From positions 14,784,001 through 14,848,000 of the forward strand of contig NC_084927.1 in the NCBI RefSeq assembly GCF_958298935.1: 64,000 nucleotides of DNA. The letters run 5' to 3'. The notes beneath the pieces were generated by a model. That model was not told the DNA's origin. It did not search any database and saw nothing but the letters and a program-made list of their open reading frames with translations. A program made the translations under genes and the position numbers. The stretch is from Phragmites australis (lineage: Eukaryota; Streptophyta; Magnoliopsida; Poales; Poaceae). This document shows, in pieces, positions 31,743-40,321 of this stretch. Within the stretch, counting starts at the first letter, position 1. The number at the start of each line of letters is the position of its first letter.

Positions 31743-33297
31743 ACTAGGTCTGGGTCCTTTACATAGGATACTTGTGCAACATCCTTGGCAAGCATGAATG
31801 GTTGTTCTCTGTATCCGACGAGTTCGAGGTCCACGGTAGTCATATCGTACTTGTCGACCTTGACTCCCAATAGGAGTCTGACCCATTGGCACCAAAACAG
31901 AGGGACCATCAACTCGCCATATTCAAGCTCTCAAATCTTCTCTATAAATCCATAGTAGGTCTCCCTATTACCAACACGGTCATAAACATCAATACGAACA
32001 CCGCTATTTTGGTTAGTGCTCTTGTTGTCTTATGCTCTCATATAAAATGTATAGTCGTTAATCTCATATGCTTAGAATGTGTGAATCGTAGTTGATGTGC
32101 CATTAGCCAGCAATTCCAAAAGAGCAGTGTCGATATCTTTACCCATCATGTGTTGACGTAACCAATTACCGAAATTATCTCTGTGCTCTCTTGCGATCCA
32201 ATTGTCTAACTTCGTTGGATTTGTGGAGTGTAGCATGCTCACGTGCATGTTGATATACGGGCCACTACAAGTGACTGTTGCAAAAGTACGAAGTGTGCTT
32301 GAGTGAATAAAACACGATCTTTGATATGAATTGAAGTATGACCTATCTTTCTTGCGTTGTTCAGCGTGCCATCACATCAACTCGGTATTCGCTCTGTTAG
32401 CAAACAATTGCTTCAAACAGGAGATTATAGGGAAATATAAAACCACCTTAACGGGGGTCTTTTCTCATTTCTCTTCACCCCCACACCATTGCTCTCGAAA
32501 TCATCAACGTTGTGCTTGTACCATGGTGCATTGCAAATGCGACATGCTTCCGAGTCTGCATCATCGCCGCGAAACAACAAGTAGTCATTTTCACATGCAT
32601 GTATTTTCTCTACTTCCAATCCCAACGGGCAGACAACCTGCTTAGCGTGGTACGTGTTTTCGGGCAACACGTTCCCCTTTGGAAGCAATTCCCTCAAGAA
32701 TTCTAATAATTCATTGAAGCCCTTGTCGGCCCAACCATTGCTGGCCTTCATTTGCATCAGTGTCAGCACCACATGCAACTTGTAGCACTCATATTTACAA
32801 TTCGGGAAAACTGGTGTTTTAGAGTCCTCTATCATGCGCTGATACTTTTGATTTTGTCCTTCAATGGTGAAGTCTCCCTCCCCATCACGCAACATTTGTT
32901 TTATGTCATCTTCATTGTTGCCAACAAAAGTATCCCCTCCATCATTCTCGACAAAAGTATCTTCAAATGCCGACATATCAAAGTCTTCATTAGTCGTCAT
33001 ATCATTGTCTATGTCTTCTTTGATTGTTGGTTGCCCTTCATACCCAATATCTTCAAGTTCACCATGCTCAGTCCAACGGGTATAGCCAGCCTTGAAACCC
33101 CTGCGGATCAAGTGTGCATGGATCTGCTCTATGTTTGAAAGTTGTTTCTTATTCTTACAATTGACACACGAATAACATATATAGTGATCGGCACGCTTCC
33201 TTCTTGGCTTCTTGTACGCCGCAGCAGCCCTCAAAAAAGCATCAATGCCAACAACAAACTCTGGCCCTCAATCCTTGTACATCCATAACCGGTCCAT
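31743..33297 (-). pseudogene. CACTA transposase TNP2 pseudogene, core deleted
   Basis: The minus strand starts at ATG 33297: MDRLWMYKD, stop, GPEFVVGIDAFLRAA, then ICYSCVNCKNKKQL, which is the Transpos_assoc domain (PF13963). An acidic middle and CRICNAPWYKHN follow to about 32490. After 32420 a decayed WFYISL...NCLLTERIPS stretch resembles the start of the Transposase_21 region, but the catalytic core is missing: near 32330 the sequence jumps to the C-terminal DUF4218/DUF4216 part (NFGNWLRQHMMGKDI, then MTTVDLELVGYREQPFMLAK and VSYVKDPDLVNK). TNP2 cuts and rejoins CACTA ends; this copy has lost the catalytic residues. Confidence 0.88.
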
Positions 33298-36161: not shown

Positions 36162-37275
36162 TACTATCACAGAAACTCCAATCGGTGACCGTCTATTAGT
36201 GTCGGTCTTGCTAGCACCAACAGTGATAAGTTATCACTGCCAGTTCATAACACGAAATGATAGTAATACATCGTTGTTGGCTCATGGCTAAAACCAGCAG
36301 GGATATACAATTTATCGTTCCAGTTGATGCCATGAGCTAGCAATGCAAAATAAGATACTAAGTTTGGAAGTTGCAAAATTTAGCTTAAGAAGGTAACTAC
36401 AAAATAAGTTCATGATTGCACTGAGAAATATATGATTACACTAAGAAATAAGGTCCTAATTGATTACAAAATATATAAAGTCTCTTGATTACAAAAGAAA
36501 TCGAGATTACACAAAAACCAACATCCGGGTTGTAAAAGATCACTAAGCCTATGCTATAGCCAGCCTACTCCTATGCTAGCTTAGGCTTCTTTGTCGACGG
36601 GCCATCGCCGTTTAATGACAATGGCAATTGTGGCTCCTCCTCCTCCTCGGTGCTAGCCTCCTCCTTCTCCTCCTCGGTGGAGGAGGAGTCCTTAGAGCCG
36701 GCCGGATCCTCCTTCTTCTCCTTGTCCTCCTCCTCCTCGGAGGACATGTCGTCGTTCGCGTCGGCCTCACCCTCCTCCAAGCTCGTCGCTGGGCAGCATT
36801 GGGGCATAGTGCCCTCCATGATGTGTTCCTAGTCCTCATTGCAGGACCAGGAGGACAAATCATAGGAGTAGAAGGAGAGGTCATCATCGGAGGAGGTCAC
36901 CATTGCCTCGTCCTCCAAAGATGATGGTGGTGGCAACAGAGGAGAGGCTAGCGATGGTGGACGAGAAAGGATGGGTGATGACAATGGAGGAGGAGAGGCC
37001 ATGAAGACAATGGTGTAGCTAGCTAGGAACTTTGAAAGGTGGAGGAGGACACAGACGGTTGGTGGATGGAATGAGGAGGCCGGGGAGGGTGAGTAGTTGT
37101 AGTAAACATTCGCAGAAAATAAAGCTACGGGCACCATGCGGGGCACATGGAGGACATGAAGGGGGCAGTGAATTTTTCATTGCCGGTTGTCAACTCCAAC
37201 TGGCAATGATAGGAGGCTCAGTAATTCACACGTCTTTCTATCAATGTCGGTTGGGAACTACAACCTCTATTTAAT
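36162..37275. mobile_element. CACTA-derived block with an acidic ORF
   Basis: The left part starts 'tactatcacagaaactcc' (a worn CACTATCACAGAAA-type end) followed by 'gtgtcggtc' and 'cactgccagtt' motifs to 36290. Similar motifs recur at 37170-37275. The block cuts the helicase. A matching right terminus was not found here; one candidate is 40321 (AATAGTG), which would enclose the element at 37498-39556. Confidence 0.5.
36571..37002 (-). pseudogene. Acidic ORF carried by the CACTA block
   Basis: From ATG 37002 on the minus strand: MASPPPLSSPILSRPP, then SSDDDLSFYSYDLSSWSCNED, stop at 36831-36829, and in the same frame MEGTMPQCCPATSLEEGEAD followed by long Glu/Ser runs and a basic end (KKPKLA) that looks like a nuclear localisation signal. 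No domain is recognised. It may be a gene typical of some non-autonomous CACTA families or a captured host gene. One stop in about 144 codons. Confidence 0.5.
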
Positions 37276-38057
37276 TCATTTGCCTCTATTATTTTCTCTA
37301 TCCCACAAGTGAGAATTTACTCTGACACAAGTGAGAGCATAGTACTTTGTTCTTCCTTGCTCTAATGACTTAGATCTCTGTTCTTCCTTACTTTGCTCGT
37401 GAGAGTTATTTTAAGAAACATGGTTTCCTTTCCATCATCTAATTTTTTGTTCTTCCTTACTTATATAGATCTTTAATTTGTTCTACATGTCTTAAGTCAC
37501 TACTAGAGAAATGATTTGTACAGACGGTTCGGAAACCCCGTACATGACACTTTTCCGAACCATTTGTGGAAAACAATCTGTAAAAATTAGATTAGTACAG
37601 ATGGTTTTTGAACCGAATGTACAAATGATTAGTACATTAGAGCAGCCTGTACAAATGATTAGTACATACGGTTTAGAACAGTCTGTACAAATAATTAGTA
37701 CAGACGGTTCCAGTTTAGAACTATATATACTAAGATAAAAAAATAAAATTATGACCCATACATCGATTGCATTGATTTGCTCTCTGATTACATCAAATCC
37801 ATAATACGTAGACGATATAAATTTGGTAAACCTATCATATGTTCATGAGAAATGGACAAGTATCTTCAAAAAGCACTACGAGCTGCAAAAAAATTTGATT
37901 CATCAAAAGGTCCCTTCTCTGAACCCTTCTCTATATATACTCGATTTCAAAAGATAACAATTCATTCTGCAGGTAATGAAATGCTCATGCGTTAGGCAAA
38001 CAAAACAGTTCTTTGAAGCACAAAACTCAATGTGTGATTATAACACATGCATGGTAC

Positions 38058-38156
38058 CTTTCTTGATCTAATCTTTCCCAGGCCTTTGTCCAACCTAGCC
38101 TCCAGCTGCTTAAGGTCCATGTGGCTCATGTTTGTGATAGGATCACCTATCAAGGC
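38058..38156 (-). pseudogene. MADS-box K-domain exon (AGAMOUS clade), captured
   Basis: Read from 38156 down: ALIGDPITNMSHMDLKQLEA followed by RLDKGLGKIRSRK, bounded by AG and GT (acceptor 38158-38157, donor 38057-38056). This is the second K-box exon of an AG-clade MADS gene (OsMADS58/ZAG1-like from memory). It is 99 bp, one less than the usual 100; one G appears lost at the acceptor side, as the preceding exon ends N-S-N-(AG) and needs a base to complete R-A-L-I-G-D. Confidence 0.82.
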
Positions 38157-38253
38157 CTGAAACATCAATGGAGAGCTTAGTCACCAAACAAAAACCTTTT
38201 TGTTAAGTTGATTCGCCAAGATGTGCACAATAAGTCTTTTATAAATATTGAAG

Positions 38254-38315
38254 CTGTTGGAGTTCTACAAGTTGGTGATTAGCTGCCTCAGCTTAACAGA
38301 TTCCTGCTCGTAGTG
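38254..38315 (-). pseudogene. MADS-box K-domain exon, captured (62 bp)
   Basis: HYEQESVKLRQLITNL, stop, NSN: the first K-box exon of the same AG-clade gene. Its length is exactly the 62 bp typical for this exon, and an AG precedes it at 38317-38316. The stop is TAG where CAG (Gln) is expected. The donor GT is lost (reads CT). The 97 bases between it and 38156 represent a shortened intron. Confidence 0.82.
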
Positions 38316-38644
38316 CTGCAGCTTAAAATCAGAAGACCTTATTAGGAAGTCTGATTCATCAAATATGACTGCAACATAGGCAAACAAATAACAGTAGTCA
38401 AGAAAAATTCTAATAACTCTGGATGAAGTATGCATGCTAGTTAAACATGAATGTAGTTGTGTGTTTGCCTCTTGGGCTTCAACAAATACGAGATTCCAAT
38501 CCCCAAATACAGGCATCATTCTCAATCACACATAGAAACCAATACGGGATTCCAATCCCCAAATCCGACATCCTTCCAAGAGAATAATACAGATTGAATC
38601 GACAAAACAATGATTGAGAAAAGTAGAACCCTAGAGGTGTCGAT

Positions 38645-38802
38645 AGAGGTGAGGGAGTTCACCTTCACGTTGAGGGACTCGCTAGAGTTGTACTTGTGCG
38701 GGTAGCTCCCTGGGAGGTAGAAGTCATGGGCGCCCGACGCGCAGAGAGCGCGGTCGCCACGACAACAACGGTGATGAAGAGGAGTGCGCTAAGGCAGACC
38801 AT
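38645..38802 (-). pseudogene. TM9SF (nonaspanin) first-exon fragment, captured
   Basis: ATG at 38802 opens a signal peptide (MVCLSALLFITVVVVATALS). After one frameshift the next part reads ASGAHDFYLPGSYPHKYNSS and ESLNVKVNSLTSI, the N-terminus of plant transmembrane nine superfamily proteins (FYLPGSYPHKY and LNVKVNSLTS are family hallmarks). The rest of the gene is absent. It lies upstream of, and in the same orientation as, the MADS exons, so one transcript could in principle join them. Confidence 0.82.
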
Positions 38803-38957
38803 GGTTGGATCTGGATCGGGGGCTTCAACTTCTAGGTGGATCTGGGCGGCGATGGGCTCGGGGTGGTGACGGAGAGGAGGCCGGCGACGAGATCCTACTC
38901 CCTCCTGACGGTGATGCCGCTAGAGATGGGGAGGGAGGGGGCTGGATCTGATGTTGC

Positions 38958-39098
38958 CATGGTGTTGAACTCGACAGTGACGTTGGCGACAGAGCTGTTC
39001 CTGGTGCTGGCTACGGTGGAGGCGGAGGAGTTAAAGAGGCCCTGGTAGCCGCCGGTGGCGCCGAGCATGGCATGATCGTGGGAGACGAAGAAGGTGCT
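38958..39098 (-). pseudogene. Possible L-type lectin domain fragment, captured
   Basis: Reads STFFVSHDHAMLGATGGYQG, then LFNSSASTVASTRNSSVANV and TVEFNTM. A Gly-Gly-Tyr-x-Gly-Leu-Phe-Asn run followed by an F-D/N-T motif resembles the legume-type lectin domain (gGyLGLfN ... vaVEfDT). The match is short, so this is tentative. Confidence 0.4.
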
Positions 39099-39597
39099 CT
39101 AGATCTAAAGGCTAGATTTGAGGGCCAAATCTGAGGGAGATGGAGATGGGGAGGGAGGAGGGCAGCTCTGAGTTCGCTCTGAGCAGTTTGGAGAAGGTTT
39201 CGGTGTCATGAGCACGTGGGGCGTCGCGTGAAATGCAGTGTGGGACGCTCAGTTGAGATTAGAACCGTCTGTACCAGCGTCACTGGTTAAATGCAGTGCG
39301 GGACGCTCCAGTTGAGATTGGATCCGTCTGTACTTTGGTATTTTTAGACGGTCTCATTTGGGAGCCGTCTATATTATTAGTACAGACGGTTCCTAAATGA
39401 GAACTGTCTGTACTAAAGCATCCCACGCAGTGGAAGCTGCTCTCGTTATTTTTTCAAACGGTTCTAGTTTGGAACCGTCTGTGATACCATTTGCACATAA
39501 GGCTCCGAGTAGATGTCTGTACAATGGCGTCCCACTAAATCATTTATGTAGTAGTGAGTTATAGTTTTTTGTATTATGTTTGTGTCATTTTTTGCAG

Positions 39598-39996
39598 ATC
39601 AACTCTTCTGTGTCATTTTGATAGCACATTCTAGAAGGAGGGTTAAGGTCAGCCAGATTGTAGCTTGTTACCTAGATCTCGTTTTAGGCCCTCAGGAATA
39701 ATTGCTCATCGTCTTGGAACACTAGTTTCATGCAACCAAAAGCTGGTGGGTAACCATTGTTGCTGCTATCTAGTTCGCTCTAGGACCCAACAACACCATC
39801 TGGATTGTCTTTGATCATCTCAACAACCAGCGCAACATTCTTTGCCTGAGACCAGAAGAGGCAGGATATCTGCATCATCATGTGTACACTTTTGATGAAG
39901 TTGATGCCTTCTTCTGTCAGGAGATCCATATGGGGCTACACGATGAGGCAGAGGATCATGTGTGCAGTTTTTACATCCAGAGGCTTGATGCTTAAA
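39598..39996 (+). pseudogene. Unidentified coding-like segment
   Basis: After a possible acceptor (tttttgcag) one frame runs for about 133 codons with three in-frame stops: QLFCVILIAHSRRRVKVSQI, SWWVTIVAAI, LGPNNTIWIVFDHLNNQRNI, LCLRPEEAGYLHHHVYTFDE and VDAFFCQEIHMGLHDEAEDH, ending at TAA near 39996. Composition is protein-like but no family is recognised. It lies between two blocks of CACTA subterminal repeats, so it is probably CACTA-carried. Confidence 0.45.
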
Positions 39997-40149
39997 CTAT
40001 GTTATAATAAACTTATTATGTATTAATATTAAGTTACCTACATTCTAGTTACTTATATTCATAATTTTTAATATTAAGTTAACTTTATTCATAATTTTTA
40101 GATTGTTTTTTCTACATTCAAGTTACCAATTCACATTTTTTAGTTGTCT

Positions 40150-40321
40150 TTTATGTTGACAGTATCAGTGTCGGTTCTAGCTACTAACCGGCAATGATAG
40201 ACTTTCAACGATGCCTTGATTACCACACCTTTGACAGATACTATCACTACTGGTTTTAGCTATAAACTAATAGTGATTGTCTATCATTGTCGGGTGGTTA
40301 CTTGATTCGACAGTAATAGTG
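40150..40321. repeat. CACTA subterminal repeat cluster
   Basis: 'atcagtgtcggttctagctactaaccggcaatgatag'-like motifs (given in part) occur five or so times, ending AGTAATAGTG at 40321. The complement CACTATTACTG resembles the worn end at 36162. Confidence 0.6.

Follow-up and report, generated by a model that had tools for sequence, protein, structure and literature searches.

The window analysed here is a stretch of 64,000 nucleotides from Phragmites australis, placed by genome search at C7:14784001-14848000 of an 848-Mb assembly; for a published assembly of the species, the accessible text of PMC11742667 gives two subgenomes of 399.2 and 427.1 Mb and a B chromosome of 21.2 Mb. A CACTA element of 2,059 bp occupies window positions 37498-39556. 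As stated in the original prediction, it has matching inverted ends and is flanked by a duplication of AGT, and the captured pieces within it are all on the minus strand. The terminal arms, 37493-37517 and 39537-39561, are 88% complementary. The parts of the element are as follows.

37495-37497: left target-site duplication, AGT
37498-37517, plus strand: left terminal inverted repeat, CACTACTAGAGAAATGATTT
37518-37738: left subterminal repeats, GTACAGACGGTTC and variants in both directions (repeat families D1-D4 and inverted pairs)
37744-37916: internal segment common to five other copies and two sister elements, outside the C11 and C9 match
37917-38352, minus strand: captured MADS58-like piece of the C11 lineage (L016 match, 90% over 437 bp), containing exons 3-5 and their introns
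37925-37966, minus strand: MADS exon 5, 42 bp, which an in-frame TAG interrupts in the window copy
38058-38157, minus strand: MADS exon 4, 100 bp, K-box
38254-38315, minus strand: MADS exon 3, 62 bp, start of the K-box
38353-38635: internal segment with a 28-bp near-repeat, supplying the tail read after the TM9SF piece
38636-38802, minus strand: first coding part of TM9SF, from the ATG through the signal peptide into the lumenal part, with a frameshift in the window copy
38803-38874, minus strand: stretch 5' of the TM9SF start codon, co-captured (the match to L018 extends to 38874)
38883-38951: segment also found in CACTA family members without the lectin piece
38949-39098, minus strand: legume-lectin-like piece, from profile searches
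39102-39274: segment common to family members, where it adjoins 38883-38951
39281-39536: right subterminal region, found in many family members
39537-39556, minus strand: right terminal inverted repeat, the inverted partner of CACTACTAGAGAAATGATTT
39557-39559: right target-site duplication, AGT

The CACTA ends and 3-bp duplications ruled out identification of the element as a Helitron or as a Mutator element. The longest stop-to-stop frame overlapping it is 116 aa, and because no longer frame lies inside, the element is taken to lack a transposase of its own, a judgement made on frame length. For the window as a whole, 10 of the 44 frames of at least 150 aa were scanned against Pfam; four gave no domain and six gave transposon or retrotransposon domains, namely a Copia-type gag, the transposase-associated PF13963, an integrase core (below cut-off), Transposase_28, a gag/protease and a reverse transcriptase. 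A CACTA transposase-associated domain lies at 32428-33267 on the minus strand. By eye, the flanks of the element (e.g. 37160-37240 and 40160-40300) resemble the subterminal repeats of another CACTA family, and given this likeness of the flanking repeats (37100-40300) the element is probably an insertion nested inside a member of that family. A similar word around GATTCATCAAA flanks the MADS piece on both sides (37896-37906 and 38353-38363; repeat family D11), and the pair is perhaps a trace of the joining-in of this piece.

The MADS piece, 37917-38352, was aligned to a MADS gene on C11 with 90% identity over 437 bp (E 8e-171), and 37923-38320 to the partner gene on C9 with 86% over 400 columns. 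The stretch predicted to hold the AGAMOUS-clade K-box exons, 38058-38315, lies inside the C11 match. Consecutive exons of this clade with their intron are indeed present; however, transfer of the exon bounds through the C11 alignment gave three exons of 62, 100 and 42 bp instead of the predicted two of 62 and 99 bp. A Pfam K-box was found at 38058-38180 on the minus strand (E 6e-7; 29.9 bits, just short of the curated cut-off of 30), and exon 3 alone gave no Pfam match. The C11 gene has its exons in sequence from the MADS exon through to the C-terminal one, and when joined they encode a protein 100% identical over 243 residues to the Phragmites 'MADS-box transcription factor 58-like' protein P0001. 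Several other grass proteins named MADS58 by their sources are among the best 120 listed matches of the C11 protein. The proposed search for the MADS donor in the host genome thus points, on sequence similarity, to the lineage of the C11 gene, MADS58-like and of the AGAMOUS clade. All six copies of the element are nearer to C11 (K80.084-.105) than to C9 (.135-.172). Introns differ from those of C11 at 134 of 1347 positions for the copies (summed over copies) and at 43 of 209 for C9, and since the introns of the copies are closer to C11 than are those of C9, the capture is younger than the C9/C11 split. If these two genes are the two subgenome copies, the dates in the accessible text of PMC11330502 apply to them: a Ks peak of 0.2 gives about 30.9 million years, trees give 37.7-44.4, and an earlier estimate is about 17. 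The C11 protein (L027:3469-3795) has K, C and N at three positions of the MADS domain; eight other aligned proteins, including the C9 partner, show E, G and S/G there, as would fit relaxed constraint on the C11 protein.

The second piece, predicted to be a TM9SF signal peptide and N-terminus, was recognised as such by the match of 38636-38874 to a TM9SF gene on C5 (87% over 240 bp, E 1e-79), inside which the predicted stretch 38645-38802 lies. The captured sequence starts 5' of the ATG and stops near codon 56. Intact TM9SF genes readable as a single exon are present on C5 (L018) and C6 (L022), each with an EMP70 domain (E about 3e-182), and the lineage of the C5 gene was located as the donor that the prediction had proposed to look for. 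A longer TM9SF 5' piece of about 360 bp, which contains the 240 bp of the CACTA piece, was found in three Helitron-like carriers in the regions C3:24577430 (L019), C3:32147566 (L020) and C16:20908999 (L021). On the 5' side CTATACTATAAAGC or CTATACTACAAAGC is seen in L019 and L020 and less clearly in L021, and on the 3' side GCTAG followed by T is seen in L019 and L021, with no 3' end seen for L020. These side motifs resemble Helitron ends. In L021 the TM9SF start is present twice in tandem. These gene-capturing elements of the same genome share the TM9SF start with the CACTA element but, unlike it, show no inverted ends or target duplication and were recognised by end motifs.

The third piece had been described as possibly from a lectin gene, a reading favoured by the other copies and by a profile, the window copy being weak on its own. 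The window copy gave no Pfam match for this piece and seven PDB matches at E up to 10, six of them to lectins (best 0.81). Of the five other copies, three matched Lectin_legB at corresponding profile positions without reaching the curated cut-off (E 1.6e-4 to 2.6e-3), and the remaining two had no match. Searched singly, one other copy gave nine PDB matches with E no higher than 10, the best at 0.13, and each was to a lectin. A five-copy profile including the window copy retrieved 26 PDB sequences with E no higher than 1 (best value 0.0026), every one bearing a lectin name, in one case favin. In the family members L025 and L026 the segments 38883-38951 and 39102-39274 adjoin without the lectin piece, thus the piece is either an insert or has been lost from these two. 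Donors or donor lineages were found for two of the three pieces.

A count of other copies, also proposed at the outset, found at least five more, near full length and with 83-87% identity, on C5, C23, C8, C12 and C3. With the window copy there are at least six, a lower bound as 40 of 863 candidates were scored. A 3-bp duplication is present in all four copies that have both ends (AGT, AGG, GGA and ACA); the C8 copy has lost its right end and the C12 copy its left end, and the C5 copy starts with TACTA, not CACTA. Pairwise K80 among the copies from 37744 onward is.126-.157 with no clear subgroups, a flat pattern as after one burst. A sister group is formed by L014 (region C2:26887752, left end not found) and L015 (region C3:24166333), which are 82% alike over 2.1 kb. 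They share 37744-38283 with the window element at 89-90%, a stretch that includes the MADS piece as far as a point inside exon 3, and beyond this left half they carry another right half, in which a minus-strand ATG is followed by a hydrophobic stretch that by eye resembles a signal peptide. The insides of 18 elements were compared (15 of the 20 fetched right-end matches together with L014, L015 and L024, the six copies of the window element being excluded, L040, L041, L046, L047 and L049 being left out, and the left bounds of L034, L035 and L036 being arbitrary) and fell into 12 groups, defined by more than 50% shared interior. The same ends with 12 interior groups indicate that the family is a set of ends with changing cargo. 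The element has the attributes of a Pack-CACTA, i.e. terminal inverted repeats starting with CACTA, a 3-bp target-site duplication and no transposase of its own, and the genes from which its fragments come are intact elsewhere in the case of MADS (C11) and TM9SF (C5).

The captured MADS exons decay as unconstrained DNA. Changes private to one copy were counted at 40 of 1206 positions in the MADS exons and 29 of 1302 in the introns (p 0.11), so that if anything they are more exonic. By codon position the exonic changes divide 12:14:14, and they comprise 13 synonymous and 22 nonsynonymous changes and 5 stops, where chance would give 29%, 68% and 4%. Between the C9 and C11 genes themselves the corresponding comparison is 10 of 204 in exons versus 43 of 209 in introns (p 1.4e-6). 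Pointing the other way, all differences from C11, summed over copies, are somewhat rarer in exons (88 of 1220) than in introns (134 of 1347), a deficit which must partly reflect constraint on the C11 gene itself. Over the six copies, C-to-T and G-to-A change reaches.186 in CG,.135 in CHG and.049 in CHH, a mutation pattern suggesting long CG and CHG methylation. At the right end, 39102-39556, CHH (.100) is close to CHG (.111), which indicates that the methylation pattern is not uniform.

These data bear on whether the fused pieces are, or once were, a gene for a K-box peptide, secreted or targeted to membranes, with the TM9SF start spliced into the MADS exons. A start codon and signal sequence do stand upstream of the MADS exons as predicted; however, the window copy is frameshifted in the TM9SF part and its frame of 45 residues stops short of the MADS exons, exon 5 contains a TAG and the exons are unconstrained. 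Such a gene could draw on the common orientation of all the pieces, on the 93- and 106-residue frames kept from the TM9SF start in the C23 and C8 copies, on the precedent of a soybean CACTA element with captured exons that enter transcripts by splicing (PMC1947982, accessible text) and on P0121, the 82-residue translation of a 542-base public contig in which a TM9SF start resembling the L019 one is followed by the CACTA tail of the window type. Against this, the contig may come from genomic DNA as well as from a transcript, the frames from the TM9SF start are 45 (window), 45, 93, 106, 60 and 20 residues long, and in none of the six copies is a MADS exon reached unspliced. The frames and the lack of exon constraint ruled out a working chimeric protein; judged by sequence, the fused pieces give no sign of making one and no open frame appears to be under selection, and a present or former gene is scarcely credible. 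Action without a protein, in which small RNAs from the non-coding element silence or methylate the MADS58-like donor with a regulatory effect, is improbable too, if somewhat less so. It would be possible by sequence, as the window copy shares identical runs of 39, 29, 22 and 36 nt with the C11 gene (two wholly exonic, one across the edge of exon 3 and one nearly all intronic) and each of the six copies has at least two identical runs of at least 24 nt with C11 and likewise at least two with C9. Captured sequences in maize are described as siRNA reservoirs acting on donor genes in the accessible text of the review PMC13317346, and the three altered residues of the C11 MADS domain would fit a relaxed donor but prove nothing. 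The annotated C11 gene, however, is still a full MADS protein. The identical runs and P0121 are leads rather than evidence of function.

A further choice concerns the route of the TM9SF piece, which by similarity appears to belong with the C5 gene. Direct capture from that gene, independent of the Helitron-like elements, has an appreciable chance of being correct but is the weaker reading. The changes shared with those elements would then reflect a common donor allele or recurrent mutation, and in keeping with this the TM9SF tree, weakly supported at its inner nodes, shows no nesting of clades between the Helitron-like and the CACTA copies. There are also seven alignment sites with a state common to most transposon copies and found in neither gene; four of them adjoin a gap and are thus less safe, and some of the seven are C-to-T or G-to-A changes. 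On the other hand, the state at two of these seven sites is present in all nine copies, the one firm split in the tree sets the two genes against the transposon copies (SH-aLRT 85, bootstrap 84), the Helitron-like piece contains the whole of the CACTA piece, and P0121 joins an L019-like TM9SF start to a CACTA tail. Among sites that distinguish the two genes, there are 12 at which the majority of transposon copies agree with C5 and three at which the majority agree with C6. The changes shared with the Helitron-like elements suggest that the piece may have arrived via another transposon. A more elaborate relay, in which the TM9SF start was mobilised by a Helitron and then taken by a CACTA family that kept the MADS K-box half while swapping the half in front of it (twice for a signal-peptide-like start), some composites being transcribed in reed, is unlikely. 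The trees of both pieces are too weak for ordering the captures.

We are highly confident that the element is an old copy of a non-autonomous Pack-CACTA family whose halves were joined, multiplied and have since decayed as methylated, unconstrained DNA. A left half with the MADS58-like exons 3-5 would have been joined to a right half with the TM9SF start and the lectin piece, the order of the captures being conjectural. A CACTA transposase encoded elsewhere would then have amplified the composite, mobilisation in trans being presumed, and the copies would subsequently have decayed under methylation of the kind that the mutation pattern suggests. Pack-CACTA elements of Arabidopsis, rice and maize, as described in the accessible text of PMC8903248 and PMC13317346, are like the reed element in having CACTA ends, no transposase and pieces of several host loci per element, and like the reed family in combining the same ends with differing insides. 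Unlike those described there, the reed family has one left half with two right halves and a captured piece that is also found in another transposon family. An origin of Pack-CACTA elements from neighbouring insertions with complementary deletions is proposed in PMC13317346, as far as its accessible text goes, and a common left half with two right halves fits such an origin. Tgm-Express1 of soybean is likewise a CACTA element with fragments of several host genes, but its insertion site is the intron of a gene, and transcripts incorporate its fragments by splicing (PMC1947982, accessible text), whereas the reed element lies among repeats and is decayed. Capture of MADS58 or TM9SF by CACTA elements was not noted in the literature searched on CACTA gene capture, which is no proof of absence, and one literature search on nested capture by Helitron and CACTA elements found no matching paper.

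The process itself is already known and the element is a clear example of it with an unusually legible history. It provides a multi-copy record of exon shuffling by CACTA elements in a grass with a good genome, in which a MADS half is found with two partners and a TM9SF piece is common to a CACTA family and to Helitron-like elements. If a relay between transposon families is true, then counts of gene capture made family by family would overstate the number of independent captures from genes.
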